This document shows, one piece after another, positions 2,127 to 63,748 of a DNA stretch of 64,000 nt. The stretch covers positions 1,612,001-1,676,000 of the forward strand of contig NZ_CP010776.1 of assembly GCF_001577755.1 (NCBI RefSeq), given 5' to 3'. The position numbers were made by a program, and so were the translations under genes. Position 1 is the first letter of the stretch, and every line of letters starts with the position of its first letter. The notes beneath the pieces were generated by a model. It was given only the letters and a program-made list of their open reading frames with translations, was not told the DNA's origin and searched no databases. Source of the DNA: Rufibacter sp. DG15C. Lineage in GTDB: Bacteria; Bacteroidota; Bacteroidia; Cytophagales; Hymenobacteraceae.

Positions 2127-2164
2127 CGTTTTTAACCTGTTTCTCAGAAAATAGGCCAAAAACG
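2127..2164. repeat. 38-bp palindromic repeat, copy 1
   Basis: A copy with a few mismatches (left arm with ttaacc, right arm intact), 53 bp after the Fe-S gene stop. With the copy at 2315 it brackets a cluster of small hairpins. Confidence 0.85.
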
Positions 2165-2179
2165 AAAACTCAAAGGCCT

Positions 2180-2310
2180 GCTTCAAGTTTCTAACTTGGA
2201 GCAACCATTGGCGCAAGTTTTCAACTTGCGTACAACGTCCAAAGAGAGAAAAGGAAGTTGAAAACTTCCACCATAACAACCACAAGCTGTAAGCTTGCGG
2301 TAGAAAGTAA
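2180..2310. repeat. Cluster of short inverted repeats between two 38-bp palindromes
   Basis: Four small dyads follow one another: CAAGTTtctAACTTG, CGCAAGTTttcAACTTGCG, GGAAGTTgaaAACTTCC and an imperfect CAAGCTgtaAGCTTG. The theme is a repeated aagttt/aaactt word. The whole 2074-2431 gap contains no gene that I can support and ends with the tagcacatt repeat (2390-2429) before the ATG at 2432. Confidence 0.6.
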
Positions 2311-2314
2311 GCTT

Positions 2315-2352
2315 CGTTTTAAGCCTGTTTTCCAGAAAGTAAGCCAAAAACG
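2315..2352. repeat. 38-bp palindromic repeat, copy 2
   Basis: A mildly degenerate copy (tttaagcc in the left arm, agccaaaaacg on the right) closing the hairpin cluster. Confidence 0.85.
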
Positions 2353-2431
2353 AAAGTCTTTCGTCTTACATCTTGTGCCCAGTGTCTTTTATTAGCACAT
2401 CAGCACATTAAATAATTAGCACCTTAAAAAA

Positions 2432-2926
2432 ATGTACGTTCCGTTTCATCAGTTACCTCCGCATAGCCGCCTCTGGATTTACCAGCTGGACCGGCCCCTT
2501 TCTGACCAGGAAGCAAAGGCCATGGAGCAAAAGCTGGAGGAATTTGTAACCGAATGGAGCAGTCACAGTAACGACTTGCAAGCGTCTTTCCAGATAAAGG
2601 AGAAGCAGTTTGTGGTGTTGGCCACCAATGAACAAGTGGCCTCGGCTAGTGGTTGTTCTATTGACAAGTCTGTGAATTTTCTTCGGCAATTAGAACAGGA
2701 GTTTCGCGTTCAATTATTTGACAGGACGCAGTTGGCGTTCCAGCAAGGCGGAGCCGTACAATTGGTACCCATGGCGCAGATAAAGGCCGAAGTGGAGAAT
2801 GGCACCCTGTCGCCGGACTCATTGTATTTTGATACCTTAGTTTCTACCGTGGGCGGCTTGCAACAGCAATGGCCCGTTCCCGCAAAAGATACCTGGCTGG
2901 CGCGTTATTTTCAGCCTGTGTCCTAA
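2432..2926 (+). CDS. Conserved Bacteroidota protein of unknown function
   Basis: A 164-residue soluble protein with no signal peptide and no Walker motifs. Recognisable stretches are FHQLPPHSRLWIYQLDRPLS at the N terminus, a central FVVLATNEQVASASGCSIDKS and a C-terminal YFDTLVSTVGGLQQQWPVP. From memory, similar Bacteroidota proteins are often labelled ABC transporter ATPase in databases, but no ATPase motif is visible here and I do not support that name. It ends 12 bp before the PorE-like gene, which suggests co-transcription. Confidence 0.7.
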   Translation: MYVPFHQLPPHSRLWIYQLDRPLSDQEAKAMEQKLEEFVTEWSSHSNDLQASFQIKEKQFVVLATNEQVASASGCSIDKSVNFLRQLEQEFRVQLFDRTQLAFQQGGAVQLVPMAQIKAEVENGTLSPDSLYFDTLVSTVGGLQQQWPVPAKDTWLARYFQPVS

Positions 2927-2938
2927 CATCTTTACCAT

Positions 2939-4849: not shown

Positions 4850-4885
4850 GCCTTTACCCATTTTTCAATTGATTTGATACGATGT

Positions 4886-4923
4886 CGTTTTCGGCCTGTT
4901 TTCCAGAAAGCAGGCCGAAAACG
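4886..4923. repeat. 38-bp palindromic repeat, compensated variant
   Basis: The left arm reads CGTTTTCGGCC and the right arm GGCCGAAAACG. The T-to-C change on the left is matched by A-to-G on the right, preserving pairing. It lies between the PorE-like stop and the start of the next gene. Confidence 0.9.
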
Positions 4924-4938
4924 TTTTTTAGAGTGCCC

Positions 4939-5989: not shown

Positions 5990-6027
5990 CGTTTTTGGCC
6001 TGTTTCTGTCAAAATAGCCCAAAAACG
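5990..6027. repeat. 38-bp palindromic repeat before purM
   Basis: Left arm CGTTTTTGGCCTGTTTC is intact and the right arm is slightly altered (agcccaaaaacg). It lies 35 bp before the purM ATG, between a possible -7 box TATTTTTG (5962-5969) and the gene, so it would be in the 5' leader if that box is used. Confidence 0.88.
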
Positions 6028-7719: not shown

Positions 7720-7775
7720 TCCCTTCCTCGTTTTTGGCCTTTTTTACAGAAAGTAAGCCAAAAGCGAGGAAGGGA
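7720..7775. repeat. 38-bp palindromic repeat with extended arms
   Basis: The core copy (7729-7766) is flanked by TCCCTTCCT on the left and AGGAAGGGA on the right, which are exact complements. The hairpin is thus lengthened to about 27 base pairs. No other copy in the window has such long flanking complementarity. Confidence 0.85.
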
Positions 7776-8977: not shown

Positions 8978-9015
8978 CGTTTTTAGCCTGTTTTCATCAA
9001 ACTAGGCCAAAAACG
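8978..9015. repeat. 38-bp palindromic repeat
   Basis: Left arm CGTTTTTAGCCTGTTTTC, centre atca, right arm with aggccaaaaacg. It sits downstream of the DUF4293 gene on the minus strand, next to that gene's likely terminator. Confidence 0.88.
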
Positions 9016-11362: not shown

Positions 11363-11400
11363 TGTTTTTGCCCTATTTTCTGAGAATTGGCCTAAAAACA
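11363..11400. repeat. 38-bp palindromic repeat, degenerate
   Basis: tgtttttgccctattttctgagaa-type core; both arms recognisable but with several substitutions (ggcctaaaaaca on the right). It lies upstream of the coiled-coil protein gene. Confidence 0.6.
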
Positions 11401-12001: not shown

Positions 12002-12039
12002 CGATTTTAGCTTGTTTTCCTAAAAGTAAGCCAAAAACG
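12002..12039. repeat. 38-bp palindromic repeat
   Basis: cgattttagcttgttttc left arm with two changes; right arm aagccaaaaacg. It follows the terminator in the 11925-12541 gap, which holds only repeats. Confidence 0.8.
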
Positions 12040-12194: not shown

Positions 12195-12482
12195 CTTACT
12201 TTCTATTCAGGTTTGTCACTTTTCTCCTTGATGAGAAAAGTAACCAAAAGAATCAAGAACCACCGAACTCGCTGAACGCTCAAACAGGCGGTGGTTCATT
12301 AATGTGCACTTGGCTAAAGCTATCTGTTTCATGGCGGTCTTACACCGTTGCTACTGGAGAGGCCACTGCTTTCTCCCTCGTGAAAAAGGACCTAAATCGA
12401 ACGGTCCCTTTTCCCTCGGTCAAGGGCTGGCGGATGGCTGTTGGTGCGGTTGCAATGCCTTCATCGCCCTGCGGGCGGGAAT
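12195..12482. repeat. ~285-bp structured repeat element, copy A (before truA)
   Basis: The element aligns over its length with 52786-53075. It starts with a hairpin ACTTTTCTC-cttgat-GAGAAAAGT (12218-12241), followed by taaccaaaagaatcaag. A second stem GAACCACCG (12257-12265) pairs with CGGTGGTTC (12289-12297). Conserved blocks ctttctccctcg, ccctcggtcaa and gttgcaatgcc follow. Two base pairs in the second stem differ between the copies in a compensated way. Part of the element is read-through open frame upstream of truA, but I see no independent gene. Confidence 0.75.
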
Positions 12483-13361: not shown

Positions 13362-13399
13362 CGTTTTTGGCCTGATTCCCAGAAAGTAGCCCAAAAACG
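13362..13399. repeat. 38-bp palindromic repeat
   Basis: Starts one base after the truA stop codon. Left arm CGTTTTTGGCCTGATTC; right arm with agcccaaaaacg. Confidence 0.88.
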
Positions 13400-13489: not shown

Positions 13490-13527
13490 CGTTTTCGTCT
13501 TGTTTTCCGGGAATCAGGCCAAAAACG
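13490..13527. repeat. 38-bp palindromic repeat
   Basis: cgttttcgtcttgttttc left arm, aggccaaaaacg right arm. It lies in an open stretch ahead of the ABC exporter gene and is not part of the protein. The sequence between this copy and the previous one carries gactcaagactcaggact low-complexity words (13404-13440) and a -7-like TACTTTTG (13463-13470). Confidence 0.8.
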
Positions 13528-15389: not shown

Positions 15390-15427
15390 CGTTTTTAGCC
15401 TGTTTTCCGGAAATCAGAGTAAAAATG
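15390..15427. repeat. 38-bp palindromic repeat, right arm decayed
   Basis: Begins eight bases after the exporter stop. Left arm CGTTTTTAGCCTGTTTTC is good; the right arm (cagagtaaaaatg) has lost pairing. Confidence 0.75.
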
Positions 15428-16040: not shown

Positions 16041-16077
16041 CAAGAGCGATCCCTAATAGGTCGCTCTTGTTGTTTTT
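16041..16077 (+). terminator. Intrinsic terminator
   Basis: CAAGAGCGA pairs with TCGCTCTTG and is followed by ttgttttt, which merges into the left arm of the next palindromic repeat. Confidence 0.85.
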
Positions 16078-16108
16078 AGGCTGTTTTCTAGGAATCAGGC
16101 CAAAAACG
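16071..16108. repeat. 38-bp palindromic repeat
   Basis: tgtttttaggctgttttc left arm and caggccaaaaacg right arm, between two convergent genes. Its T-rich left arm doubles as the U tract of the preceding terminator. Confidence 0.85.
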
Positions 16109-22678: not shown

Positions 22679-22714
22679 CGTTTTTGGCCTGATTTTCAGG
22701 AAATAAGGTAAAAC
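22679..22714. repeat. 38-bp palindromic repeat, truncated right arm
   Basis: Left arm CGTTTTTGGCCTGATTTTC intact, right arm eroded (ataaggtaaaac). It lies between convergent genes. Confidence 0.7.
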
Positions 22715-23109
22715 TAGATGTGTTTGGTAAGCTCCCTGATGCGGTTCCGGAGCTGGTCTAAATGCGTCTGCTCCTGTTGGTGTTTCTCAATTTCTTCCAA
22801 TTGGTGCAATAGGTTCTGCATCTCTGTCAAGTAAGCGGCCCGGTCTTTCTTGAGGTGGGCTTCTGGGTGTGCCTCTCCCTCGCCTTTAAAGACGTTGCCC
22901 TCGCCGTAGATCACCCAGCGGGAGTTGACGTCTGGCAGTTGCTTAAGAAAAGCCAGCAGGTCATCCATGCAATATTCCTCTCCCTGCACAATGCACCCCA
23001 CCATGGCCGGGGGCGTCTGCGTGAGCACGCTCAACTGGTAGACATCCAATTCCTTAATGCGCATATAAAAATTAAGGCGGGCACTTATCTGCTGTAAATT
23101 TATAGCCAT
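22714..23109 (-). CDS. XRE-type helix-turn-helix regulator with coiled-coil tail
   Basis: A 131-residue protein. Residues 1-70 resemble the Cro/CI helix-turn-helix fold: ISARLNFYMRIKELDVYQLSV, a turn, then FLKQLPDVNSRWVIYGEGNVF. The last motif is the VNxxWLxxGEG signature of Bacteroidota XRE proteins. Residues 85-131 form a charged coiled coil (YLTEMQNLLHQLEEIEKHQQ). It is probably a small dimeric DNA-binding regulator. A near-palindrome TTTAACCGGTAAA lies 8-20 bp before its start and might be an autoregulatory site. The targets are unknown. Confidence 0.7.
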   Translation of the reverse strand: MAINLQQISARLNFYMRIKELDVYQLSVLTQTPPAMVGCIVQGEEYCMDDLLAFLKQLPDVNSRWVIYGEGNVFKGEGEAHPEAHLKKDRAAYLTEMQNLLHQLEEIEKHQQEQTHLDQLRNRIRELTKHI

Positions 23110-23275: not shown

Positions 23276-23313
23276 CGTTTTCGGCCTGATTTCTGGGAAA
23301 CAGGCCAAAAACA
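23276..23313. repeat. 38-bp palindromic repeat
   Basis: cgttttcggcctgatttc left arm and caggccaaaaaca right arm; unusually, it sits upstream of genes on both sides rather than behind a stop codon. Confidence 0.8.
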
Positions 23314-28103: not shown

Positions 28104-28141
28104 CGTTTTTAGCCTCTTTTTCAGAAAACAGCCCGAAAACG
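28104..28141. repeat. 38-bp palindromic repeat, mixed variant
   Basis: CGTTTTTAGCC left and CAGCCCGAAAACG right: the right arm carries the gcccg form while the left does not, so pairing is imperfect. It lies upstream of rsbR. Confidence 0.8.
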
Positions 28142-31533: not shown

Positions 31534-31571
31534 CGTTTTTGGTCTATTTTACGGAAAACAGGCCAAAAACG
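31534..31571. repeat. 38-bp palindromic repeat inside the efflux operon
   Basis: Left arm cgtttttggtctatttt, right arm GAAAACAGGCCAAAAACG intact. It starts three bases past the adaptor stop (minus strand), so a hairpin there would separate the adaptor from the ATPase message. Confidence 0.85.
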
Positions 31572-32999: not shown

Positions 33000-33037
33000 C
33001 GTTTTCGGCTTGTTTTCCGGAAATTAGGCCAAAAACG
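33000..33037. repeat. 38-bp palindromic repeat
   Basis: cgttttcggcttgttttc left arm and aggccaaaaacg right arm, upstream of the efflux operon regulatory sites. The remaining 33038-33182 is AT-rich with no gene seen. Confidence 0.82.
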
Positions 33038-34102: not shown

Positions 34103-34140
34103 CGTTTTTGGCCTGTTTCTAAGAAAACAGGCCAAAAACG
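34103..34140. repeat. 38-bp palindromic repeat, near-perfect copy
   Basis: Left arm CGTTTTTGGCCTGTTTC and right arm GAAAACAGGCCAAAAACG, almost the consensus; 14 bp past the yceI stop and between yceI and pirin. Confidence 0.93.
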
Positions 34141-38160: not shown

Positions 38161-38198
38161 TATTTTCGGCCTGATTTCTTAGAAACAAGCCAAAAACG
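38161..38198. repeat. 38-bp palindromic repeat
   Basis: tattttcggcctgatttc left arm (outer CG lost) and caagccaaaaacg right arm, 13 bp past the cyclase stop. Confidence 0.75.
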
Positions 38199-38774: not shown

Positions 38775-38812
38775 CGTTTTCGTCCTCTTTCCCAAGAAAC
38801 AGGCCAAAAACG
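38775..38812. repeat. 38-bp palindromic repeat
   Basis: cgttttcgtcctctttccc left arm and GAAACAGGCCAAAAACG right arm, 30 bp past the NTF2-like gene. Confidence 0.8.
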
Positions 38813-40386: not shown

Positions 40387-41734
40387 GAACTTCCGGTTTC
40401 AGATCGTGGCCCGCGTGCTATTGCTGGTGGCCACCGTGTTTGTGTTTTTCAAGATTGGCTTTGACGCTTCCTTGGTAAGTACCCAAGTCTTTGTGGGCCT
40501 ATTGATTGCCGCGCAGACCGTGGCGCTCATTGTGTTTCTGGAGCGCACCACCAACCGCCTAGTCAAATTTCTAAACACCATCAAATACGATGACTTCACA
40601 GAGGTCTTCACCAGCCGGGGAGAGGGAGAGAAGTTTGACGAGCTCTACAAAAGCTACAACGAGGTCATCAAGAAATTCAAGGACATCCGCTCAGAGAAAG
40701 AAGCCACCACGCACTACTTCCAGACGGTGGTGCAACACATTGGCATAGGTATTCTCACGTTTAAGAAATCCGGCGAAGTCCAGCTCATGAACAACGCCGC
40801 CAAGCGCTTGTTGCAAGTGCCCAGGCTGGAGCATGTAGAGCATCTGCGCGCGGTTTCATCTCAATTAGCCGAGCAACTCCTCACGCTCCCCGCGGGTCAG
40901 AGTGCGGTGCTCAAACTGCCACACGGCAAAGAGCGCGTGCCTGTTTCTCTGTTTGCCGTGGATTTGGTCTTGCGCGGGGAGGACTTCCGGTTGGTGTCCA
41001 TCCAGAACATTCAGCGGGAGCTGGAGGACAAGGAGATGGAGGCCTGGCAGAACCTGATTCGCGTACTCACGCATGAAATCATGAACTCGGTGACGCCCAT
41101 AGCCTCTTTGGCCGGAAGCGTAGCCGCCGATGTACAGGATTACCTGGAGGCCCAGCCCGGCAACCAAATCTGTCTGGAGCGCGAAGAAACCGAAGACATG
41201 GGCATGGCCCTGCAAACCATTGAGAAGCGCAGCCAGGGCCTGGTGCGCTTCGTGAACGACTTCCGGAGCCTGGCCCGCGTGCCCACGCCTAAAAAAGCGT
41301 TGTTCAGCGTAGATGAAATGTTCAGGCAGTTGCAGTTGCTGTTCCAGGAGGAGGTGGCCCATGAGAACATCCTGTTCATTGTCAATTGCCGCCCAACTAA
41401 CTTAACCGTGCTCGCTGACCGGGAACTGCTGGAGCAGGTGCTCATCAACCTGGTGCGCAACGCCATCCACGCCCTGGCCGACCAACCCAACAAAACCCTA
41501 CAGCTGGAAGCCTTCCAAGACTCAGACAGCCGTACAGTGTTGCAGGTCTCAGACAATGGCATGGGAATCTCTGAGGAGGCCCAGGAGCAGATTTTCCTGC
41601 CATTTTACACCACCAAATCCACCGGCTCGGGCATTGGCTTGAGTTTGTCCAAGCAGATTATGCGCTTACACAAAGGCACGTTGACGGTGAGTTCAGAACT
41701 GGGGAAGGGGACTACGTTTACGCTTCGTTTTTAG
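40376..41734 (+). CDS. Membrane sensor histidine kinase, partner of the NtrC-type regulator
   Basis: A 452-residue kinase: two N-terminal membrane helices (about 10-60), a PAS-like domain (about 115-220), HisKA with the phospho-acceptor in VLTHEIMNSVTPI and HATPase motifs NLVRNAIHAL, DNGMGISEE and GSGIGLSLSKQI. It begins inside the regulator gene, showing translational coupling. Its last three codons, CGT TTT TAG, are the first nine bases of a 38-bp palindrome, so the repeat provides the stop. An upstream in-frame start is less likely because it lies entirely within the regulator. Confidence 0.92.
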   Translation: MGFRNFRFQIVARVLLLVATVFVFFKIGFDASLVSTQVFVGLLIAAQTVALIVFLERTTNRLVKFLNTIKYDDFTEVFTSRGEGEKFDELYKSYNEVIKKFKDIRSEKEATTHYFQTVVQHIGIGILTFKKSGEVQLMNNAAKRLLQVPRLEHVEHLRAVSSQLAEQLLTLPAGQSAVLKLPHGKERVPVSLFAVDLVLRGEDFRLVSIQNIQRELEDKEMEAWQNLIRVLTHEIMNSVTPIASLAGSVAADVQDYLEAQPGNQICLEREETEDMGMALQTIEKRSQGLVRFVNDFRSLARVPTPKKALFSVDEMFRQLQLLFQEEVAHENILFIVNCRPTNLTVLADRELLEQVLINLVRNAIHALADQPNKTLQLEAFQDSDSRTVLQVSDNGMGISEEAQEQIFLPFYTTKSTGSGIGLSLSKQIMRLHKGTLTVSSELGKGTTFTLRF

Positions 41735-41762
41735 GCTGTTTCCAGAAAATAGGCCGAAAACG
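41726..41762. repeat. 38-bp palindromic repeat supplying a stop codon
   Basis: CGTTTTTAGGCTGTTTC left arm and ATAGGCCGAAAACG right arm (37 bp). It overlaps the final codons of the histidine kinase gene. Confidence 0.88.
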
Positions 41763-42231: not shown

Positions 42232-44271
42232 ATGCGTATTTCTACCCTTTTGCCGTTTCGCGGCATCTTGTTGGTGCTTTGTCTTTTAGGCAGTGCCCTA
42301 GTCCAAGCCCAGGACGCTCCCGTGAAATATGGGAAAGTGACCGAAGAAGAACTTAAGATGACTTCCTACGCCAAAGACACCAGCGCCGCCGCGGTGATCT
42401 TGGCAGACTATGGAAGGTCATACTTTACCGTAGTTAATAATAGCATGAAACTGAATTTTGAGCGGGTGATGCGTATCAAAGTCTTGAAAAAGGCCGGTTA
42501 TGAAATGGCTAATATTACCGTGCCGTACTATCAGCAGTCCTCAAGCAGTAAAGAGCTGGTATTGAATATTAAGGCCACCACATATAATCTGGAGAATAAC
42601 CAGGTAGTGAAAGTAAAGATGGACAACAGCGCCATCTTTGATGAGAAGGAAAGTGAGAACTGGTACAACAAGAAATTCACTCTGCCAGCAGTAAAGGAGG
42701 GCTCTGTTCTTGATATATCTTACGCCATATCCTCAGACTTCATCTTTAATTTTAGAGACTGGACTTTTCAGGGCTCTATACCGGTGGTGCATAGTGAATA
42801 CCGTGCCTCCATTCCTGAATATTATGAATACAAAAATTTCGTGCAGGGTTATGAGCCAATGGTGGTGAATGAGGTGCTGCCCGGATCCATGACTGTCACT
42901 ACTACGCAACGGGAATCATCTGGTGGAAACATTGGCGTAAGCAGCAATACTACTTCTAGCAGTGAAAATGTACGGACTGTGAACCATAGGTGGGTCATGA
43001 AAGATGTGCCTGCTATTACGGCAGAGTCTTACATTACCACTATTCAAGACTATATCGCTAAAATTGAGTTTGAGTTGGAGTGGATCAGGTATCCGTATGA
43101 GATGGCAAAGCGGGTAGCCGGTAATTGGAACAAACTCACGGACGAGTTCTTGCTAGAAGACCGGTTTGGCGCGCAATTGAACCGCACTGGTTACTTCAAA
43201 AATGAAGTGGCGTCATTGCAGTCTGTAAAAGATACCTTGGAGAAGGTGAACACCATCTATGACTACGTAAAGAAGAATGTAAAGTGGAATGGCAAAGGCG
43301 GTGTTCTGGCTACCAACACTTTACGCAAGGCCTTCGAAATTAAATCTGGAAACGCTGCAGACATTAACCTCATGCTGGTGGCTATGTTGCGTGACGCTGG
43401 CCTGGAGTCCTACCCAATTGTGCTGAGCACGCGTGACCACGGCAGAGTACCTACCCATGCACCCATGCTTAACAAGTTTAACTATGTGGTAGCCTTTGTG
43501 AAAACGCCGAAAGGTGATTTGCTGTTGGATGCTACAGATCCTTTCATGCCTTTGGGCCAACTGCCTAAGCATTGCTTGAACGGGCAGGGTTGGTTGGTAG
43601 CCAAAGACCAAGGCTCCTGGATTCCATTGGTACCACAGGGCAAGTCTACAGAGCTGTTGAACGCAGAACTGAGCATTTTGCCTACAGGAATCATGAGCGG
43701 AAAAGTACAGGAGTCAAGCAGTGGCCTGTTGGCCGTGAACATGCGCACCGCCGTGAAAGAGGCAGGTGAAGCAAAGTACATGGAGAAACTTGTGAACGCT
43801 CAAAACCAGTTTGAACGCAAGAAGCCTGTCTTAAAAGACCTTGCCCAGATACAAAAGCCAATTTCCCTGGAATATGAAATCACCAGCACCGGTGACGGCC
43901 AAGCCAAGGATATCATTTATGTGAACCCTATGCTCTTGAAGGCTAGACAGGAGAACCCATTCAAACACACAGAGCGCAAGTACCCAGTGGACTTTGGCCA
44001 TGGCACAGAAGAAGTGTACGTGTGTAACTTCACCATTCCAGAAGGCTATGTAGTGGAAGAAATGCCTAAGGGTGTGATGATGTCCTTGCCTGACAACGGG
44101 GGTAAGTTTACCTACATGCTGCAGCAGACGGGCAACAAGGTACAGGTGATGAGCAAAGTGACCATCTCTCGTCCAATCTTCTATGCCCAGGAGTATGAGG
44201 CGCTTAAACAATTCTACTCTCAGATTGTAGCCAAGCACGCAGAGCAGATTGTGCTTAAAAAGAAAATCTAA
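42232..44271 (+). CDS. Secreted DUF3857/transglutaminase-like protein A, active-site residues lost
   Basis: A 679-residue protein with signal peptide (to about LVQAQ). The N-terminal beta-rich DUF3857 domain (about 60-270) is followed by a transglutaminase-like domain (about 320-440) and a C-terminal DUF3858-like beta domain (about 540-670). Where active transglutaminases have GDC and FNH, this protein has AADINL (Ile378 in the Cys position) and FNY (Tyr418 in the His position). It should be a non-enzymatic envelope protein. It is close to the protein at 46337 and distantly related to the one between them. Confidence 0.85.
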   Translation: MRISTLLPFRGILLVLCLLGSALVQAQDAPVKYGKVTEEELKMTSYAKDTSAAAVILADYGRSYFTVVNNSMKLNFERVMRIKVLKKAGYEMANITVPYYQQSSSSKELVLNIKATTYNLENNQVVKVKMDNSAIFDEKESENWYNKKFTLPAVKEGSVLDISYAISSDFIFNFRDWTFQGSIPVVHSEYRASIPEYYEYKNFVQGYEPMVVNEVLPGSMTVTTTQRESSGGNIGVSSNTTSSSENVRTVNHRWVMKDVPAITAESYITTIQDYIAKIEFELEWIRYPYEMAKRVAGNWNKLTDEFLLEDRFGAQLNRTGYFKNEVASLQSVKDTLEKVNTIYDYVKKNVKWNGKGGVLATNTLRKAFEIKSGNAADINLMLVAMLRDAGLESYPIVLSTRDHGRVPTHAPMLNKFNYVVAFVKTPKGDLLLDATDPFMPLGQLPKHCLNGQGWLVAKDQGSWIPLVPQGKSTELLNAELSILPTGIMSGKVQESSSGLLAVNMRTAVKEAGEAKYMEKLVNAQNQFERKKPVLKDLAQIQKPISLEYEITSTGDGQAKDIIYVNPMLLKARQENPFKHTERKYPVDFGHGTEEVYVCNFTIPEGYVVEEMPKGVMMSLPDNGGKFTYMLQQTGNKVQVMSKVTISRPIFYAQEYEALKQFYSQIVAKHAEQIVLKKKI

Positions 44272-44275
44272 AAAC

Positions 44276-44301
44276 CGTTTTTAGGGTGTTTTCCCAGAAT
44301 T
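44276..44301. repeat. 38-bp palindromic repeat, half copy
   Basis: Left arm CGTTTTTAGGGTGTTTTC and centre are present, but the right arm is cut short two bases before the next ATG at 44303. Confidence 0.7.
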
Positions 44302-44302
44302 T

Positions 44303-46219
44303 ATGAAAAACTGGATATTAGCTGTTGGGGTGGTGGTACTTTCCTGTACCTCCGCCAGTGCCGGAGAGCCTTCGTATTCTGCCTTGACCATTGACGCCTC
44401 GCTTAAAAAAGACGCCAACGCGGTGGTGCGCGCAGATGATGTGATTTTTACCGTCCACTCGCCGCAGTCTGCCTCGCAGAAAGTGCGGCAGGTGGTCACT
44501 ATCCTAAATGAGAATGGCAATGGCCATGCAAGTTTAGCCGTGGGGTATGATAAGCTCACCAAGATAGATTACATCAAGGGCGCGGTGTATGACATGATGG
44601 GCAAGAAAGTGAAAACCTTGAAAGCCTCTGACATTACAGACGTAAGCGCCGTGAGCGAAGGGACTCTGTTTGATGACAACCGCATGAAAGTGGTCAAGCT
44701 CTCCCTGCCTTCTTACCCATATACAGTGGAGTTTGAATACCAGACGAGTACCAACAACCTGCTGTTCTATCCTACGTGGTATGCCATAAGCACAGATAAA
44801 ACCTCTGTGGAGCACTCGTATTTTCAAGTGTCCATGCCCGCAGATATGCCGTTGCGCTACCGGGAGCTCAACCTGCCGGCAAAAGTAGAGACGGCGCAGA
44901 CCAACGGGAGAAAACTCTACAGCTGGACCATGAAGAACATCACGCCCTTAGAGGTAGAACCCATGAGCATGGGCTACCGTGATCTGATTCCTATGGTAGT
45001 GACGGCGCCCTCAGATTTTGAAGTGCACGGGTATAAGGGAAACATGAACACGTGGTCAGACTTCGGGAAGTGGCTTACTCAGCTAAATGCAGGGAGGGAC
45101 ATATTGCCAGAAGCCACCAAGCAGGAAATCAAGAACCTTACAGCGGCTTTGTCAGACCCGCTAGCCAAAGCGGAAGCTGCCTATAACTACATGCAGAATA
45201 AGACGCGCTATGTGGGTATCCAATTGGGGATAGGCGGCTGGCAGCCTTTTGAGGCGACTACAGTGGACTCTAAAGGCTACGGAGACTGCAAAGCACTAAG
45301 TAATTACACCAAGTCTCTGCTAGAGGCGGCCGGTGTTACTAGCTACTACGCGGTCATAAGAGGAGGCGAAGGCGAGTTGCCCATCATCAATGACTTTCCT
45401 AGCAACCAATTCAACCATGTGGTGCTTTGCGTGCCCACTGCCAAAGACACCCTGTGGCTGGAGTGCACCAGCCAAACCGAAGACGCCGGGTACACCGGTA
45501 CTTTCACCGGAGACAGGTATGCGCTGTTGGTGAAGCCAGAAGGGGGCGTCTTGGTGAGAACTCCCCAGTTTGACGCAAAAGACAACGGGCAGTATAGAAG
45601 TGTAAAGGTAAAACTGAATGCGCAGGGCGGTGGAGTGGCAGAAGCAACCACGTTGTTCTCTGGCAGCCAGCATGAGCACCGCAAAACCATGACGCATCAT
45701 TACAGCCCAGAGGAACAGCTCAAATGGCTTTACAAGAACACTGATATTCCGGCCTTTGAGATCAAGAAGTTTACCCTGAGCCAGACTGAGAAATCCAGGT
45801 CGCCTAAGATGAAGGAGACGTTGCAATTGGACCTGCCCAGAGTGGCTTCGGTGAGCGGCAAGCGCCTGTTCATCACCCCCAATCTCATGAACCGCTGGAC
45901 CTTTGTGCCGCCTGTTACCGAAAATAGAAAGCAGGATGTGGTTTGGCGCGAGCCTTTCTATGACACAGACACCGTGGAGTATGAGATACCGGCGGGCTAC
46001 CTGCCAGAAAGCGTTCCGCAGCCTGTAAAGATTTCTTCTGTGTTTGGTGAGTACAAATCACAAGTGAGCATAAAAGGCGGCCGATTGGTGTACGTGCGGG
46101 AATTGACCATGCACAAAAGCCGCCAGGCGCCGGGCAAATACCAGGAACTGGTCAATTTCTTAAAGCAAGTCTCCAAGGCAGACCAGCAGCAGGTAGTCTT
46201 GGCGGCCACCCCTTCTTAA
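44303..46219 (+). CDS. Secreted DUF3857/transglutaminase-like protein B, active-site residues kept
   Basis: A 638-residue protein with signal peptide (about residues 1-20, VVLSCTSASAGEP). It has the same three-part layout as its neighbours but retains the transglutaminase Cys329 in GYGDCKALSNY and His372 in FNHVVL; the third member is replaced by Glu in LECTSQTED. It could therefore be an enzyme (protease or transamidase-like). It starts 31 bp after protein A. Overall similarity to A and C is low outside the domain motifs. Confidence 0.85.
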   Translation: MKNWILAVGVVVLSCTSASAGEPSYSALTIDASLKKDANAVVRADDVIFTVHSPQSASQKVRQVVTILNENGNGHASLAVGYDKLTKIDYIKGAVYDMMGKKVKTLKASDITDVSAVSEGTLFDDNRMKVVKLSLPSYPYTVEFEYQTSTNNLLFYPTWYAISTDKTSVEHSYFQVSMPADMPLRYRELNLPAKVETAQTNGRKLYSWTMKNITPLEVEPMSMGYRDLIPMVVTAPSDFEVHGYKGNMNTWSDFGKWLTQLNAGRDILPEATKQEIKNLTAALSDPLAKAEAAYNYMQNKTRYVGIQLGIGGWQPFEATTVDSKGYGDCKALSNYTKSLLEAAGVTSYYAVIRGGEGELPIINDFPSNQFNHVVLCVPTAKDTLWLECTSQTEDAGYTGTFTGDRYALLVKPEGGVLVRTPQFDAKDNGQYRSVKVKLNAQGGGVAEATTLFSGSQHEHRKTMTHHYSPEEQLKWLYKNTDIPAFEIKKFTLSQTEKSRSPKMKETLQLDLPRVASVSGKRLFITPNLMNRWTFVPPVTENRKQDVVWREPFYDTDTVEYEIPAGYLPESVPQPVKISSVFGEYKSQVSIKGGRLVYVRELTMHKSRQAPGKYQELVNFLKQVSKADQQQVVLAATPS

Positions 46220-46231
46220 TTCTTTAATGGT

Positions 46232-46269
46232 CGTTTTCGGGCTGTTTTCTAGAAAATAGCCCGAAAACG
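46232..46269. repeat. 38-bp palindromic repeat, perfect compensated variant
   Basis: CGTTTTCGGGCTGTTTTC and GAAAATAGCCCGAAAACG: two positions per arm differ from the consensus and are matched on the opposite arm. 13 bp past the stop of protein B. Confidence 0.93.
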
Positions 46270-46336
46270 ACAAAGTACCTCCTCTAGTGCGCCCTTGCTG
46301 CCAGAGGAGGATTTTTTATGTAGCAGCAATTTCCCC

Positions 46337-48370
46337 ATGAAACCAAAGGTTACCAGCATCAGACCACTACTTAATAAATACCTGCTTCTTCTCTTGTTGG
46401 CAGGCTTGCCTGGCTTGGGCTTCAGCCAAGACCCGCTAAAAATGGGGCAGACCACCGCCGAGGAGTTGAACATGAAAGTATACGCCCCAGACACCAGCGC
46501 GGCCGCTGTGGTGCTGTATGACTATGGCCACTCTTCCTTTCTGTATACCAAAGGCACGCAAGTGCAGTTGAGACGGCTGTTGCGCATTAAGATTTTGAAG
46601 AAAGCCGGACTGGACCAAGCCAACATCAGCATTCCCTTTTACCGCAAAGACTTTAACAACAAAGAAGAGGTGCTAGACTTGAAGGGCTTTACCTATAACC
46701 TGGAAGGGGGCAAAGTCGTCAAGGTGAAGCTAGATGAGAAAGCTGTCTTTGAAGAGAAAGAAGACATCAACTGGTATGTCAAGAAACTGGCCATGCCTAA
46801 TGTAAAAGTAGGTTCTGTCATTGAGGTAGCTTACACCCTCAAGTCTGATTATATCTCTAACCTGCGCGACTGGACGTTCCAGAACACTATTCCGGTGGCT
46901 TGGAGCGAGTATCGCGTGAACATGATGCCCTTCTATGAATACACTCACCTTTTGCACGGGTTCCAGAAGTTTCACATAGAAGACATGAAGGTGATTAGCC
47001 AGGCCATTGCCTACACCTCGCAACAGCAATCAGATAAGATCACCTCAGAGAAATGGGGATCTGCCACCTATAAAATTGCCCAGTACCGTTGGGTGATGAA
47101 AGACGTGCCCGCTTTTACAGATGAACCCTACATGACCAGTGTAGGTGACTACCTGTCCCAATTGGAGTTCACCTTGACAAAAATCCAATACCCAGATGAG
47201 CAGCCTACCTATATGGCAGGCACTTGGGAAGGGTTAGCCACTGAGCTTCAGAAGGAAGAGGAGTTTGGAATGCAGTTGCAAAACACCGCCATCTTTAAAA
47301 AGGCCGTGGAAGAAGCATCGGCTAACAGCCCAGACCTGCTGTCTAAAGTAAAAAGCATTGAGGCCTACGTTAAAAAGCAGATGACCTGGGACGGCAAGCA
47401 CAGGATCTTTTCTGAGAGCATCAAAAAAGCCCATGAGGCACGCACAGGCTCATCGGCAGATATTAACTTATTGCTGACAGCCATGCTGCGCGAAGCGGGA
47501 ATAGATGCCAAGCCCATGTTGGTGAGTACCCGTAGTCACGGCTATCCTGCCGTCAACATGCCCATGCTCAGCAAGTTTAACTATGTGATTGCCGCTGTGA
47601 AGGTAGGCGAGACCACGTACCTGCTAGATGCCACAGAACGTAATCTGCCGTTTGGTGTTCTTCCGTACCGCTGCCTCAACGGACAGGGCTGGGTGACCAG
47701 TCTGCCGGCCGGCAAATGGATGGCGTTGAAGAACAATGAGCGCAACGTACAACTGGTGTCTGCCCACATGGAAATCAAACCAACCGGCGAGGTAATAGGC
47801 AAGATGGAAGAGTCTTACGGAGGGCTGGCCGCCCACCAAATGCGCGCCCACATCAGAGAGCAAGGCCAGGAAAGCTATCTCAAAAAGCTGACTTCTCAAG
47901 ACCCAGAGTGGACCCGCCAGGAGATAAGCTTGGTGAACCTGGAAAAGAACGACACAGACCTGAAGGCCAGCTATAAACTCCATAGAGTAGGAGAGACGCA
48001 ACCGGTAAGTTTGCTGTACGTGTCTCCCATGTTGAACCATGCCACCCAGCAGAATCCGTTTAAATCAGCTACTCGCTTGTTCCCCATTGACTTCGCGACG
48101 CCGGTAGATGAAACGTACGTCTTTACTTATACCTTGCCAGCTGGCTATGAGGTAGAGGAAATGCCCAAAGCCATCAATGTGTCTTTGCCAGACAATTCTG
48201 CCAAGTTCAGCTATATAGTGCAGGTTACAGAGGGCAAGCTACAGATCATGAGCAAGCTCAACATCAACAAGCCAGTTTTCAACGCCAAAGAGTACAACGA
48301 CCTGCGCGAACTCTACAACCGCATGGTAGCCAAGCACGCAGAAAAAGTAGTCCTCAAAAAGAAATCATAA
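46337..48370 (+). CDS. Secreted DUF3857/transglutaminase-like protein C, active-site residues lost
   Basis: A 677-residue close paralogue of the protein at 42232: the same MGQTTAEELNMKVYAPDTSA opening, the same SADINLLLTAMLREAGI with Ile376 in place of the catalytic Cys, Tyr416 for His, and the same C-terminal KHAEKVVLKKKS. Its signal peptide ends near GFSQ. The start ATG at 46337 (MKPKVTS) was chosen because the upstream 14 codons have no signal-peptide character. Confidence 0.85.
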   Translation: MKPKVTSIRPLLNKYLLLLLLAGLPGLGFSQDPLKMGQTTAEELNMKVYAPDTSAAAVVLYDYGHSSFLYTKGTQVQLRRLLRIKILKKAGLDQANISIPFYRKDFNNKEEVLDLKGFTYNLEGGKVVKVKLDEKAVFEEKEDINWYVKKLAMPNVKVGSVIEVAYTLKSDYISNLRDWTFQNTIPVAWSEYRVNMMPFYEYTHLLHGFQKFHIEDMKVISQAIAYTSQQQSDKITSEKWGSATYKIAQYRWVMKDVPAFTDEPYMTSVGDYLSQLEFTLTKIQYPDEQPTYMAGTWEGLATELQKEEEFGMQLQNTAIFKKAVEEASANSPDLLSKVKSIEAYVKKQMTWDGKHRIFSESIKKAHEARTGSSADINLLLTAMLREAGIDAKPMLVSTRSHGYPAVNMPMLSKFNYVIAAVKVGETTYLLDATERNLPFGVLPYRCLNGQGWVTSLPAGKWMALKNNERNVQLVSAHMEIKPTGEVIGKMEESYGGLAAHQMRAHIREQGQESYLKKLTSQDPEWTRQEISLVNLEKNDTDLKASYKLHRVGETQPVSLLYVSPMLNHATQQNPFKSATRLFPIDFATPVDETYVFTYTLPAGYEVEEMPKAINVSLPDNSAKFSYIVQVTEGKLQIMSKLNINKPVFNAKEYNDLRELYNRMVAKHAEKVVLKKKS

Positions 48371-48375: not shown

Positions 48376-48413
48376 CGTTTTCGGGCTGTTTTCCAGGAAA
48401 CAGCCCGAAAACG
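48376..48413. repeat. 38-bp palindromic repeat, perfect compensated variant
   Basis: CGTTTTCGGGCTGTTTTC and GGAAACAGCCCGAAAACG; same class as 46232 and starting six bases past protein C. Confidence 0.93.
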
Positions 48414-49426: not shown

Positions 49427-49464
49427 CGTTTTTGGCCTGTTTTCACCAAAACAGGCCAAAAACG
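49427..49464. repeat. 38-bp palindromic repeat, near-perfect copy
   Basis: CGTTTTTGGCCTGTTTTC-acca-AAAACAGGCCAAAAACG; it ends five bases before the stop codon of the ABC exporter gene on the minus strand. Confidence 0.93.
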
Positions 49465-52544: not shown

Positions 52545-52582
52545 CGTTTTTGGCTTCGTTTCTGAGAAACAGGTCAAAAACG
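52545..52582. repeat. 38-bp palindromic repeat
   Basis: cgtttttggcttcgtttc left arm and GAAACAGGTCAAAAACG right arm, 38 bp past the dehydrogenase stop. With the CCCCCTTTGAAGGGGG copies and the long element it fills the 940-bp gap 52507-53447. Confidence 0.82.
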
Positions 52583-52785: not shown

Positions 52786-53075
52786 ATTACTTTCTACCCG
52801 CGTTTGTCACTTTTCTCCTTGATGAGAAAAGTAACCAAAAGAATCAAGAGCCCCCGAACTCGCTGACCGCTCAGACAGGGCGGGGGCTCAAAGTGGTGCA
52901 CCGTGAGAAGTGACTCGTTGCATTGTGGGCTTACGCCTCTGCTACTCCAAAGGTGGTTACTTTCTCCCTCGGGGAAAGAGACTTAAATTGACCAGGCTCC
53001 TTCCCCTCGGTCAATGGCCGGCGGACTGCTGGTTGAGAAGTTGCAATGCCTTTTCTCGCTGGCGCACATGAATTT
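52786..53075. repeat. ~285-bp structured repeat element, copy B (before nusB)
   Basis: Aligns with 12195-12482. The first hairpin (52809-52832) is identical to copy A. The second stem reads GAGCCCCCG (52848-52856) and CGGGGGCTC (52881-52889), so two pairs changed from A-T to G-C and C-G while pairing was kept. Downstream conserved blocks ctttctccctcg, ccctcggtcaa and gttgcaatgcc are in the same order. No independent gene is apparent in it. Confidence 0.75.
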
Positions 53076-53201: not shown

Positions 53202-53239
53202 CGTTTTTTGCCTATTTCCCAGAAAACAGGCAAAAAGCG
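53202..53239. repeat. 38-bp palindromic repeat
   Basis: CGTTTTTTGCCTATTTCC left arm and GAAAACAGGCAAAAAGCG right arm; the changed GGCC/GGC bases partly match across the arms. Confidence 0.8.
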
Positions 53240-54666: not shown

Positions 54667-54704
54667 CGTTTTTAAGCTATTTTTCTGAAAATAAGCCAAA
54701 AACG
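54667..54704. repeat. 38-bp palindromic repeat
   Basis: CGTTTTTAAGCTATTTTTC left arm and GAAAATAAGCCAAAAACG right arm, 46 bp past nusB. Confidence 0.85.
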
Positions 54705-58598: not shown

Positions 58599-58636
58599 CG
58601 TTTTTGGCCTAATTCCCAGAAAACAAGCCAAAAACG
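58599..58636. repeat. 38-bp palindromic repeat
   Basis: CGTTTTTGGCCTAATTCC left arm and GAAAACAAGCCAAAAACG right arm, 20 bp past coaE and six bases before the stop of the convergent gene. Confidence 0.88.
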
Positions 58637-60370: not shown

Positions 60371-60537
60371 TTCTTTGGGTTTCGGTGACCAATTGTCCCC
60401 GTTTGATGATGCAAATATGGGGGGTGAAATCGAATCTTCCAAATAGGACTCATAAAAAAGTGTGAAATATTTTTCTGGAAGCGTCTCTGAAAGGTTTTAT
60501 ATATTTAAACTCAATACGTTAACCCTTTAAAAATTTT

Positions 60538-61041: not shown

Positions 61042-61052
61042 TTTCTAAATAA

Positions 61053-61103
61053 AAGGTAGAATCCGGGCAGTGAGGAATGCCGTCGTTGCCTGGATTCTAC
61101 CTT
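61053..61103 (+). terminator. Large hairpin, possible terminator
   Basis: AAGGTAGAATCCGGGCA pairs with TGCCTGGATTCTACCTT (one mismatch). No T run follows, so intrinsic termination is uncertain. Confidence 0.45.
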
Positions 61104-61182
61104 CCTAATCTGCTATTGTCTTGCCTTGGCCTGCGGCGCTTGGTGCCTAGGGTTTGCGTCCGTATCTTTAACGTCTGCTTGA

Positions 61183-63708
61183 TTGAACGTGGTAGGAAGA
61201 AGAAAAAAGATAGCGCGGTATTTCCTTTGGTCTCTGGGAGGGCTGGTTCTAGTATTAGGACTGGCGGCCGGCACTATCTATCTCTACCAGGACAAGATCA
61301 TTCAGCTGTTTGTAGCGGAGGCCAACAAGCACATCAAAACCAAAGTGGCTGTTGAGAAGATAGAAGTATCGCTTTGGGAGAAATTCCCGCAGGTGGCCAT
61401 CACGCTCCAAAACGTAGAAATCACCGAAGCCCTCAAAGGCAGCACCGCTCCACTGGCCAAGCTTAAAAACATACACAGCACCTTCAGTCTCTGGGACTTT
61501 CTCTGGGGCGAATACCGCATCAGAGAAATCTACTTAGAAGAAGGCGAGGTGCGCGTAAAAGTCCTGCCCAACGGCGAGGTCAACTACCGCTTCTACCAAT
61601 CTGCAGACACCAGCCAAACCGACAAGCTCTCCTTTGACCTACAGGGCATCACACTGCGTAAAGTACGCGTGCTCTATGAAGATGCGCCCGCCAAGCAACA
61701 CTATGACGTCCAGGCGCATTTGATGAATGCCGCGCTCACGATGCAGGAACCCGTGGTGACCATTCAACTCAAAGGCAATGCCCGGGTGAATACCATCCTG
61801 ATTGCGGGGGATGAGTACCTACAACAAAAGGAAATCACGCTGGGTAGCCAAATAGCCCTAGATACAGAGCGCAATCACGTAACCCTAGCCTCTTCTGAAC
61901 TACGGGTGGGCAAAGGACAGTACCAGTTTGCCGGCACCATAGACTACGCCCATGAGACGCAGCTAGACTTGAACCTAGAAGGGAAGAACACAGACATACA
62001 ATCCTTAGTAGCCTTGTTGCCGCGTCACGTTACCAAAGCGTTTGCCCAATACCAAAGCGAGGGTGACGTCTATTTTAAAGGCACCGTGAAAGGCGAGACG
62101 TCCGCGCAGAAGAATCCGTTTATTCAGGTGAGCTTCGGGTGCCGCGGGGCATCCTTCTTTCATCCAGAGTACAAAGAGAAGCTGGAGCAGGTGAGCTTTG
62201 CCGGAAGCTTTACCAACGGTACCCAGCGCAACAGCCAGTCGTCTACAGTAGCCTTGCGCAACATCAAAGGCCAATTGCGCGGCAAGCCACTCTCGGGGGA
62301 GTTTGTATACAAGAACTTTAAGGACCCAGACGTACAGGCCCAGCTGAAGGCAGACTTGGACGTGGCGCACGTTTTTGGCCTGTTTCCGGTAAAAGACGTC
62401 AAAAATGGAAGTGGCCGTGCTTTGGTCAATTTTGCTTTTGCCGGGAACCTGCGCGCGTTCAAAGCCAATCCCAGCGGACCCAGCATCAAGACCTCCGGCG
62501 AGGTGCAGTTGCAAAACGTGAGTCTGCAGTTCAGGCAACACCCATTGCCGTTCAAAGGCATGCAGGGAACGTTCCAAGTGCGTAAGAATGACGTGGCCAT
62601 CTCTGGCCTCAAAGGTAAGATTGGCGACACAGACTTTCTGGTGAACGGCTTCCTTAAAAACATGCTGGGCTACTTGTTCTTGGACAAGCAACGCCTGCGC
62701 GTAGAGGCAGACTTCTCTACCCGTTACCTTAACCTAGACCAGTTGCTGGCTGCCTCTACCACCGCTCCGCCGGTCAAGCGGCCCTCAGGCAAGGTTGATG
62801 CGTATGGGTATGCCTTGAACATGCCCGCCAATCTAGAGTTGGACATCAACGCGGCGGTGAGCAGTTTAAAATTCAGACGGTTTAGAGCCAAGCAACTGCA
62901 GGGCAACGTTCTTTTAAAGAACCAGGTCATCTCTTCGCCCAATATTGCCATGCAGGTGGTGGGTGGCCGCTTTCAAGTAAAGGGAAGCGTAGATGCGCGT
63001 CAGCCGCTCATCAAAATCAACTCTACGGCGCACATCCAGGACATTAAGGTAGACAGCCTGTTCTATGCGTTTGAGAACTTCGGGCAGGCCTTTATCACCC
63101 AGCGGCATTTGCACGGCACCTTGACAGCCCAGATCAACTCTGAGCTGTTTTTTGACCATAACCTTAACGCGCGGCCAGGCCTCATGCAAGCTGAGATTGC
63201 CACCACCCTGCGCAACGGGCAGTTGCTTAACTGGGCGCCCATGCAAAAGATGAGCATTTTCATTAACCGGAACGAGCTGGCCAACTTGCGCTTCTCAGAA
63301 ATCAAGAACAATTTCTACATTCAGAACCGCACCATCTACATTCCAGAGATGGAAATCAAGTCCAGCACCAGCCGGTTCAACAATATCACGCTGTCTGGCA
63401 TGCACACCTTTGACCAGCAGATGGACTACAAGCTCAAGATTCCACTGTCAGGTGCCACCAAAGCCAAACGCGACAAAGACGAACGCTTTGGCATCATCGC
63501 CACCACCACAACGGCCAGCCCCAACCTGTTCCTCACCATCAAAGGTAAAGAGGGCAACTTTAAAGTAGCCTATGACCAGGAGCGCGTCAAAACCAAAATA
63601 GCGGCAGACCTCAAAACCGAAAAGCAGGAACTGAAAGAACTCTTCCAGGGAAAAAAGAAAGAAGAGAAGAAGACTGTCAAACCCGCCACCGAGTACTTTG
63701 ATTTTTAA
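61183..63708 (+). CDS. AsmA-family outer-envelope assembly protein
   Basis: An 841-residue protein with one N-terminal membrane helix (about 12-35, YFLWSLGGLVLVLGLAAGTIY). A long periplasmic beta-rich AsmA/TamB-like body follows, starting VAVEKIEVSLWEKFPQVAIT and ending with LFLTIKGKEGNFKVAYDQER and a Lys/Glu-rich tail. Such proteins are thought to move lipids to the outer membrane. The start is a TTG at 61183, or possibly the GTG six bases further. Codons around residues 396-409 (bases 62370-62407) are a decayed copy of the 38-bp palindrome in frame. The stop is two bases before a full copy. Confidence 0.88.
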   Translation: MNVVGRRKKIARYFLWSLGGLVLVLGLAAGTIYLYQDKIIQLFVAEANKHIKTKVAVEKIEVSLWEKFPQVAITLQNVEITEALKGSTAPLAKLKNIHSTFSLWDFLWGEYRIREIYLEEGEVRVKVLPNGEVNYRFYQSADTSQTDKLSFDLQGITLRKVRVLYEDAPAKQHYDVQAHLMNAALTMQEPVVTIQLKGNARVNTILIAGDEYLQQKEITLGSQIALDTERNHVTLASSELRVGKGQYQFAGTIDYAHETQLDLNLEGKNTDIQSLVALLPRHVTKAFAQYQSEGDVYFKGTVKGETSAQKNPFIQVSFGCRGASFFHPEYKEKLEQVSFAGSFTNGTQRNSQSSTVALRNIKGQLRGKPLSGEFVYKNFKDPDVQAQLKADLDVAHVFGLFPVKDVKNGSGRALVNFAFAGNLRAFKANPSGPSIKTSGEVQLQNVSLQFRQHPLPFKGMQGTFQVRKNDVAISGLKGKIGDTDFLVNGFLKNMLGYLFLDKQRLRVEADFSTRYLNLDQLLAASTTAPPVKRPSGKVDAYGYALNMPANLELDINAAVSSLKFRRFRAKQLQGNVLLKNQVISSPNIAMQVVGGRFQVKGSVDARQPLIKINSTAHIQDIKVDSLFYAFENFGQAFITQRHLHGTLTAQINSELFFDHNLNARPGLMQAEIATTLRNGQLLNWAPMQKMSIFINRNELANLRFSEIKNNFYIQNRTIYIPEMEIKSSTSRFNNITLSGMHTFDQQMDYKLKIPLSGATKAKRDKDERFGIIATTTTASPNLFLTIKGKEGNFKVAYDQERVKTKIAADLKTEKQELKELFQGKKKEEKKTVKPATEYFDF
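62370..62407. repeat. Intragenic 38-bp palindromic repeat, decayed
   Basis: The first 16 bases CGTTTTTGGCCTGTTT match the consensus and 30 of 38 positions agree overall. It lies in frame inside the AsmA-like gene and is translated as VFGLFPVKDVKNG. Confidence 0.65.
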
Positions 63709-63710
63709 GT

Positions 63711-63748
63711 CGTTTTTGGGCTGGTTTCTGGGAAATAGGCTGAAAACA
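63711..63748. repeat. 38-bp palindromic repeat
   Basis: cgtttttgggctggtttc left arm and ataggctgaaaaca right arm, two bases past the AsmA-like stop codon. Confidence 0.8.

Follow-up and report, generated by a model that had tools for sequence, protein, structure and literature searches.

A 38-bp palindrome is dispersed through the genome of Rufibacter sp. DG15C and is best explained, with a probability of roughly 60%, as a set of dyad sites for a putative dimeric duplex-DNA-binding protein, probably marking the boundaries of transcription units. Palindromes scattered through bacterial genomes are commonly taken for remnants of mobile elements or for mRNA hairpins; here, docking sites for a putative DNA-binding protein fit better than hairpins or jumping DNA. 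That the palindrome is the duplex site of a dimer is likely; a boundary role between transcription units is proposed only tentatively. A sequence-specific protein would bind the duplex as a symmetric dimer, with a half-site on either side of a 2-bp centre. Selection would have kept the testable ones among an estimated 1,770 sites at fixed places, and their role would most likely be architectural or that of a boundary mark between transcription units, where they would separate colliding or trailing transcription.

Copies in the window and in the genome

The first-pass annotation had described about 30 copies in the window, i.e., the whole stretch of 64 kb that was analysed, and 30 were recovered where it had placed them, matching a perfect dyad at 26–35 of 38 positions. 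A profile added a weak 31st copy at 44276. All 31 are listed below; they were located by dyad or profile search, carry no strand assignment, and each has a counterpart at the orthologous position in sister species G017. Fractions give the syntenic gaps of other species that hold a copy out of those scored.

2127..2164, dyad copy
2315..2352, dyad copy
4886..4923, dyad copy, pair 7/32 is C-G through a change on both sides
5990..6027, dyad copy
7729..7766, dyad copy; 13/13 syntenic gaps
8978..9015, dyad copy; 4/13 syntenic gaps
11363..11400, weak dyad copy
12002..12039, dyad copy; 12/14 syntenic gaps
13362..13399, dyad copy, 1 base past the stop at 13360
13490..13527, dyad copy sharing a gap with 13362 (home-made gene calls)
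15390..15427, dyad copy past the stop at 15381; 14/14 syntenic gaps
16071..16108, dyad copy in a convergent gap
22679..22716, dyad copy with a weak right arm, past the stop at 22671
23276..23313, dyad copy in a divergent gap; 5/13 syntenic gaps
28104..28141, dyad copy
31534..31571, dyad copy
33000..33037, dyad copy
34103..34140, dyad copy past the stop at 34088
38161..38198, dyad copy
38775..38812, dyad copy
41726..41762, dyad copy, spacing variant of 37 bp
44276..44313, weak copy with a good left and a poor right arm, retained in G017
46232..46269, dyad copy, GGGC/GCCC, past the stop at 46219; G017 ortholog with another spelling; 0/3 syntenic gaps elsewhere
48376..48413, dyad copy, GGGC/GCCC, past the stop at 48370
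49427..49464, dyad copy
52545..52582, dyad copy 3' of a glutamate dehydrogenase gene; 14/14 syntenic gaps, at distances not all equal and with differing spellings
53202..53239, dyad copy sharing a gap with 52545
54667..54704, dyad copy; 14/14 syntenic gaps
58599..58636, dyad copy in a convergent gap past the stop at 58578; 13/13 syntenic gaps
62370..62407, copy within an AsmA-like reading frame (61183-63708)
63711..63748, dyad copy, 2 bases past the stop at 63708

The arms alone, with up to 2 mismatches, gave 80 matches in the window as compared with a shuffle mean of 35.25. A covariance model (R1) was built on 28 of the 30 window copies, leaving out 11363 and 41726. In a genome sample of 464 kb, 198 copies were found, of which 197 scored at least 15 bits, so that a decayed tail is almost absent; when this sample was shuffled once under an order-2 Markov model, the top score was 0.5 bits and nothing copy-like appeared. 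By extrapolation from this sample, the whole genome of 4.14 Mb holds about 1,770 copies, which extends the family from the window to the genome as the first-pass annotation had expected. Counts per genome from whole-genome model searches are lower bounds, since up to 112 or up to 34 candidates per genome were scored. An initial de novo profile was weak in three related genomes, G017 (2 matches), G022 (3), and G012 (0), and seeded or generic profiles recovered the palindromes there. Rfam matched only two tRNAs in the window and left the palindrome unmatched, and the exact dyad core had 0 matches in the viral contigs searched.

Dyad architecture, conserved places, and species spellings

Each site is laid out as two 18-bp half-sites flanking a 2-bp centre. 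Among the strong half-sites, 356 of 362 paired ones stand at the standard spacing, and only 6 of 368 are unpaired. The arms vary independently in this genome (2576 Watson-Crick pairs as compared with 2589 ± 14 expected under independence), and left and right half-site strengths are uncorrelated (rho 0.09), by which near-threshold selection on dyads was rejected. A/T tracts lie about 4 and about 14.5 bp from the centre, with G/C in between and CA/TG at the centre, an arrangement which suggests that the putative protein bends or wraps DNA. Two half-sites, fixed spacing, and independent variation were thus all found in this genome, and together with the unbiased orientation they uphold the earlier suggestion of a protein-binding site or of duplex symmetry as far as the site itself is concerned; on the side of the protein, none of the candidates sought (HU, Y1_Tnp, and serine recombinases) was found to be the binder. 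HU was rejected as a dialect-setting binder because the canonical protein is 96–100% identical across genomes with differing spellings and is also present in palindrome-free genera.

In the sister species G017, 31 of the 31 window copies were found at orthologous places, and those G017 copies that have no partner are located past the end of the window or in regions without a one-to-one alignment to it. Of the syntenic gaps scored in 14 further Rufibacter/Sabulibacter genomes, 127 of 159 whose counterpart here is occupied also hold a copy, as compared with 10 of 74 whose counterpart here is empty; a shuffled control gave 0 for both sets. The per-copy fractions listed above come from a test that covered 29 of the 31 window copies (18 with at least one scored gap and 11 with none), two copies in one gap being scored against the same partner, and poorly conserved gaps were also seen (4/13, 5/13, and 0/3). 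The profile score in sisters was 48.1 and 48.8 as compared with 13.8 predicted under flank-like divergence. The spelling of the palindrome varies by species around a common core, GTTT..CT..TTT (dialects include AGGGGC in G045 and CTCATTT in G048), and other sampled genera were without the family, which would have originated in the ancestor of the genus. The site within the AsmA-like gene is present without any indel in 7 of the 11 species having the gene (11 of 16 genomes; the remaining ones gave no gene match at 1e-60). At the places tested, the site is kept by long-term selection or by some equivalent drive even as its spelling turns over, which calls for a genome-wide recognition system.

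Such a drive could come from a recognition sequence that maintains itself, in the manner of the DNA uptake sequences (DUS) of Neisseriaceae: a species-specific receptor favours site-bearing DNA, the core genome stays full of sites through recombination, and dialects result. According to PMC3630211, DUS form dialects that share a CTG core and accumulate in the core genome, and in these respects, as well as in thousands of copies, they resemble the Rufibacter palindrome. Dialects around a common core, fixed places, and an in-gene copy without an indel would all be in line with this explanation, as would the near-absence of copies from two island-like stretches. These are the two copy-poorest stretches of the sample, and they contain an integrase with McrBC/type I restriction genes, and GmrSD, as judged from 10 proteins of two stretches picked for low copy number. 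However, the unit is a 38-bp dyad with near-fixed spacing and hardly any unpaired half-sites, only 7 of 198 copies lie within predicted genes (which bears out the intergenic preference noted before), and two copies are rare in short gaps: in gaps of 60–399 bp, at least two copies occurred 3 times as compared with 25.9 expected, the minimum of 2000 simulations being 16. In these features the palindrome departs from DUS, and an uptake-like drive is rather unlikely. The scarcity of copies in the island-like stretches and the rarity of doubly occupied short gaps also count in favour of the dimer-site reading.

Position relative to genes and transcription

More than half of the larger intergenic gaps of this genome hold a copy. 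Eight examples of copies beginning 1–20 bases past a stop codon were verified (stops 13360, 15381, 22671, 34088, 46219, 48370, 58578, and 63708), and of the 120 tandem-gap copies in the 464-kb sample, 45 begin less than 20 bp past a stop or overlap it, as determined with a home-made gene caller. Summed over five genomes (G017 was left out, as its masked windows were uncleaned in this count), gaps of at least 60 bp were occupied in 107 of 138 convergent, 291 of 489 tandem, and 57 of 144 divergent cases. This order suggests sites that separate colliding or trailing transcription; promoter space alone may, on the other hand, account for fewer divergent gaps being occupied. Apart from the pattern of one copy per gap, copies were not regularly spaced on the chromosome (CV 0.86 as compared with 0.81 ± 0.05).

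A protein roadblock, i.e., a dimer bound past stop codons that halts RNA polymerase from either side, would account for the copies at or just past stops, for the high occupancy of convergent gaps, and for a centre that is free in its orientation to the upstream gene (CA 34 and TG 31 of 120). Against it, a copy also occupies 20 of the 48 divergent gaps in this genome, and predicted terminators occur about as often in tandem gaps that hold a copy (44/104) as in those that do not (30/83) and precede the copy in 41 of 65 terminator-copy pairs, although these terminator calls come from a home-made predictor with sense and antisense rates alike. A roadblock is therefore considered improbable. An intrinsic terminator was rejected, in agreement with the first-pass annotation: no T run follows the hairpin, the 3' arm ends in A's and CG, predicted terminators are unassociated, and the flanks hold little information past the first base.

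Hairpins, recombination, and mobility

A protective or processing RNA hairpin at the 3' ends of mRNAs would be in keeping with copies past stop codons and with the folding potential (mean MFE -11.8 kcal/mol), but for one tenth of the copies the MFE is -4.7 kcal/mol or weaker, and the spacing is near-fixed although loops tolerate change. Compensated substitutions had been reported for 4886, 46232, and 48376; these cases are present, whereas an overall excess is absent in this genome. In the comparison with the sister species, a change affected one side of 115 symmetric pairs and both sides of 16 (16.9 expected); just 5 of these 16 went from pair to pair. No covariation excess was found in the own genome, in G017 (140 windows, 70 of them dropped for non-ACGT letters, read as masked runs scoring zero), or in G045, whereas total covariation was modestly positive in G060 (1877 as compared with 1801 ± 12), G032, G054, and G012, which speaks for a hairpin. 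G-U pairs are not preferred overall, with GT at 405 and the AC mismatch at 473 summed over six species, GT being larger in G017 and G045. Pair 7/32 covaries in this genome (z about 6) as the sole clearly variable pair with compensation; this and the positive totals in the four genomes count against a pure dimer-site model because it does not predict them. With compensation at chance and occupied divergent gaps in five genomes, a function at mRNA 3' ends as previously proposed is very unlikely.

Comparison with serine recombinase core sites follows standard att-site anatomy, and the palindrome, with its mostly non-self-complementary 2-bp centre between 18-bp half-sites, might be read as the core site of a serine recombinase or of a domesticated recombinase. 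CA/TG stands at the centre in 114 of 199 copies as compared with 70.5 expected, the resolvase domain PF00239 occurs in 16 of 16 genomes (1–10 matches each), and the large-recombinase domain PF07508 in 13 of 16. However, the centre is not strongly fixed, the copies are static, and PF07508 is absent from G057, G027, and G012 although the palindrome is present there, so that a large serine recombinase was rejected and a core site of either kind is highly improbable.

The least credible explanation is that of REP- or MITE-type repeats, spread by a RAYT or another transposase and now relics, for although the palindrome is intergenic and of high copy number and 15 of 16 genus genomes hold some Y1_Tnp match (three strong), this single-contig genome gave 0 matches for Y1_Tnp/RAYT at E <= 0.001, all 31 window places are common with the sister species without empty sites, the in-gene copy came without an indel, scores show almost no decayed tail, and the two island-like stretches are almost copy-free. 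The RAYT gene that had been suggested elsewhere in the genome was thus not found, and the REP tags were not enriched near copy ends (n=199; GTAG 20 and CGTC 18 as compared with 34 and 20 in control windows), which leaves the REP-like interpretation of the first-pass annotation unsupported. PMC3733652 describes GTAG and CGTC REP elements as 20–40 bp palindromes of high copy number, intergenic and mostly in tandem or convergent gaps, a likeness that holds for the Rufibacter palindrome; it differs from them in the unenriched tags, the RAYT not found in this genome, positions fixed between species, and arm compensation absent overall. Cyanobacterial HIP1 (PMC4390886) is likewise a highly iterated palindrome of one lineage with an open function, but it is 8 bp long (GCGATCGC) and linked to methyltransferases in cyanobacteria.

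In the titles and abstract starts listed for Rufibacter palindromes or intergenic sequences, REP in Cytophagales, interspersed palindromes in Bacteroidetes, and a broader search, the element was not found, nor was a genome-wide recognition system of such a kind. Noc, MatP, SlmA, and IHF are chromosome-organising dimers with dispersed sites, and IHF for its part bends DNA over a site of comparable length; their sites are far fewer or more degenerate than the Rufibacter palindrome, and no chromosome-organising dimer is known to combine one site per gap with dialects. In its furthest form, which is doubtful, the dimer-site reading would amount to an insulator-like system in which one genus-specific dimeric protein marks most transcription-unit boundaries at about 1,800 fixed sites, protein and sites having changed their spelling together several times within the genus. 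The 16 genomes with their several dialects form a comparative set for the question of how a protein can change in step with well over a thousand of its sites.

Copy number, range and spelling of the dyad

The host genome is a single contig of 4,143,738 bases (window at C1:1612001-1676000), and the closest named relatives of its glutamate dehydrogenase are from Rufibacter species and Sabulibacter ruber (87–90% identity). The palindrome family claimed in the first-pass annotation was recovered, with 30 window copies that each agree with CGTTTTTGGCCTGTTTTCCGGAAAACAGGCCAAAAACG at 26 to 35 of its 38 positions, built as a dyad of two 18-bp half-sites (arms) around a 2-bp centre. Further features of the window are as follows.

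44276, one further weak dyad copy beyond the 30
62370, dyad copy within an AsmA-like reading frame
42232-48370, three tandem DUF3857-domain genes, two of them also with transglutaminase domains
12212-12247 and 52803-52838, inverted repeat TTTGTCACTTTTCTC / GAGAAAAGTAACCAA, unrelated to the dyad

The last repeat occurs twice, near the 5' ends of two genes whose ends are at 13360 and 54620. In the sister species (G017), the region of either occurrence matches the 250-360 bp around the other one at 75-77%.

The family extends beyond the window: a profile search of a 464-kb sample (the window plus twenty 20-kb stretches of the same genome) found 198 copies, which extrapolates to about 1,770 in the whole genome. 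There is almost no decayed tail, as 197 of the 198 score at least 15 bits and a cut-off of 2 bits instead of 10 added none; the top score in an order-2 Markov shuffle of the sample was 0.5. An independent whole-genome search for the arms with up to two mismatches gave 883 and 905 matches, and none for the reversed pattern.

For spellings visible to the models used, the distribution is as follows. Of 60 genomes sampled from the taxonomic family, all 14 that belong to the genus contain the dyad by the profile from the window, and three of the other 46 had one or two matches (best E 1.3e-7). Among 194 genomes sampled across the order, this one alone gave several matches (two or more) at E 1e-4, and a dialect-neutral profile found none in 520 kb from five other genera. 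Equivalent places bear spellings that differ among species. Behind glutamate dehydrogenase the dyad begins CGTTTTTGGCTTCG in this genome, CGTTTAGGGGCTG in G045 and CGTTTTCGGACTGG in G006 (two other genus genomes), and the genome-level half-site consensus is CGTTTTTGGCCTGTTTTC in this genome and the sister species, CGTTTAGGGGCTgTTTTT in G045 and CGTTTTcGGgCTCATTTC in G048, with GTTT, CT and TTT common to the consensus sequences.

Places across the genus and relative to genes

The dyad places are old and fixed, with conservation uneven among gaps. For each of the 31 window copies, the sister species also has a dyad at the corresponding orthologous position, where the flanks share 79% identity with many gaps; the copies of the two species have profile scores of 48.1 and 48.8, and 13.8 is predicted under random change at the flank rate. 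Among 14 further species, a copy was present in 127 of 159 species-gap cases where the gap in this genome has one, and in only 10 of 74 where it has none (shuffled segments, 0 and 0). The most conserved gaps hold a copy in 13 or 14 of 14 species and the poorest in 4/13 (8978), 5/13 (23276) and 0/3 (46232). In syntenic gaps across species, the distances to the left gene differed by no more than 15 bp for 42 of 89 comparisons. At 58599 the window has one copy and the sister species two (L062:557-594 and L062:1222-1259, on one of its stretches) that bracket about 630 bp, possibly through an insertion or a deletion between copies. In the DUF3857 region, the sister species also seems to have one more tandem unit, accompanied by a separate dyad copy.

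The sampled copies lie in tandem (120), convergent (39) and divergent (20) gaps, within predicted genes (7) or at stretch ends (12). Occupancy of gaps of at least 60 bp, summed over this genome, G060, G048, G045 and G012 and similar among the five, was 107/138 for convergent, 291/489 for tandem and 57/144 for divergent gaps. A single copy per gap is apparently sufficient: 224 gaps of 60-399 bp hold 125 copies, and just 3 have two or more, compared with 25.9 expected by length (minimum of 2000 simulations, 16). A roadblock terminator is a live alternative for the function of the sites. Predicted intrinsic terminators, called with a simple method that gives the same rate in sense and antisense, are not rarer beside a dyad (44/104 tandem gaps with a copy, 30/83 without) and lie upstream of the copy in 41 of 65 terminator-copy pairs.

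No indel was found within 20 residues of the in-gene site in any of the 11 species with a matching gene. The dyad is present in seven of them (generic score 20-28; for example TTTTGGGGCTG in G061), and G060, G054, G012 and G048 have similar residues without it (score 5.4 or less). Genes with and without the dyad differ partly by synonymous codons (GTT TTG versus GTG CTG) and partly by residues, for example leucine replaced by phenylalanine in this genome and the sister species. This copy is explained by point changes that DNA-level selection or drive favoured rather than by insertion. Uptake-like drive is a live alternative for the family.

The two copy-poorest sampled stretches are L035 (genome positions 2000001-2020000; 3 dyad copies, one of which lies inside) and L044 (genome positions 3800001-3820000; no dyad in its first 12 kb). 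Their gene content is island-like: L035 holds an integrase, McrBC and type I restriction-modification genes, L044 holds GmrSD, and a DNA/RNA endonuclease gene also occurs in these stretches.

Duplex site or hairpin

Selection for a hairpin, whether in RNA or as a cruciform, should make arm partners agree more often than independent arms do. This genome has no Watson-Crick excess (2576 observed versus 2589 +- 14 for independent arms; 17 x 198 cells). Covariation is in clear excess at pair 7/32 (T-A or C-G) and in small excess at the nearly invariant pairs 12/27 and 16/23, agreement falls below expectation at pairs 13, 14 and 17 and the centre, and the strongest positional couplings are inside one arm or at the centre. 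Between this genome and the sister species, 115 symmetric pairs are altered on one side only; both-sided changes number 16 (16.9 expected), just 5 of them pair to pair. Across 408 tandem copies from six species, oriented by the upstream gene, there are 405 G-T pairs versus 473 A-C mismatches; A-C prevails in four species and G-T in G017 (67 versus 52) and G045 (55 versus 52).

Only 6 of 368 strong half-sites in this genome are unpaired (G060 9/264, G045 8/157, G048 3/176), and 356 of 362 paired ones hold the standard spacing. The central dinucleotide is CA/TG in 114 of 199 copies (70.5 expected), with no bias of CA or TG relative to gene direction (34 versus 31), and conservation peaks at T4-T6, T12 and T15-T16 (1.65-1.92 bits). 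In the 464-kb sample the site reaches about 40 bp, with a purine, reading outward, directly outside each end in about 79% of cases. In this genome the dyad is better read as a duplex site than as a hairpin; of the two readings first offered, duplex symmetry is the better, given arms at chance and near-fixed spacing.

With a dialect-neutral profile, total covariation was at or below chance in this genome, G017 and G045, and at z 0.7 to 2.2 in nine others. Clearly positive totals in G060 (1877 versus 1801 +- 12, centred on pairs 1, 7 and 10), G032 (267 versus 247 +- 5), G054 (189 versus 175 +- 4) and G012 (865 versus 837 +- 9) count against a pure dimer-site model; possible causes are mixed sub-dialects or, in these four species, some role of pairing.

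The putative binder and the likely role

Assignment to REP elements spread by a RAYT transposase was rejected on the tested features, with Y1_Tnp unmatched in this genome and the places fixed. Of the 16 genus genomes, 15 have some Y1_Tnp match; those of G054, G060 and G048 are strong (91-97 bits) and the others weaker. PF07508 was found in 13 of 16 and PF00239, varied, in all 16. HU has one strong match per genome in 16/16 (96-100% identical) and also in 10/10 genomes of other genera. The dyad family is read as the site network of a putative dimeric DNA-binding protein, and its sites most likely mark borders between transcription units.
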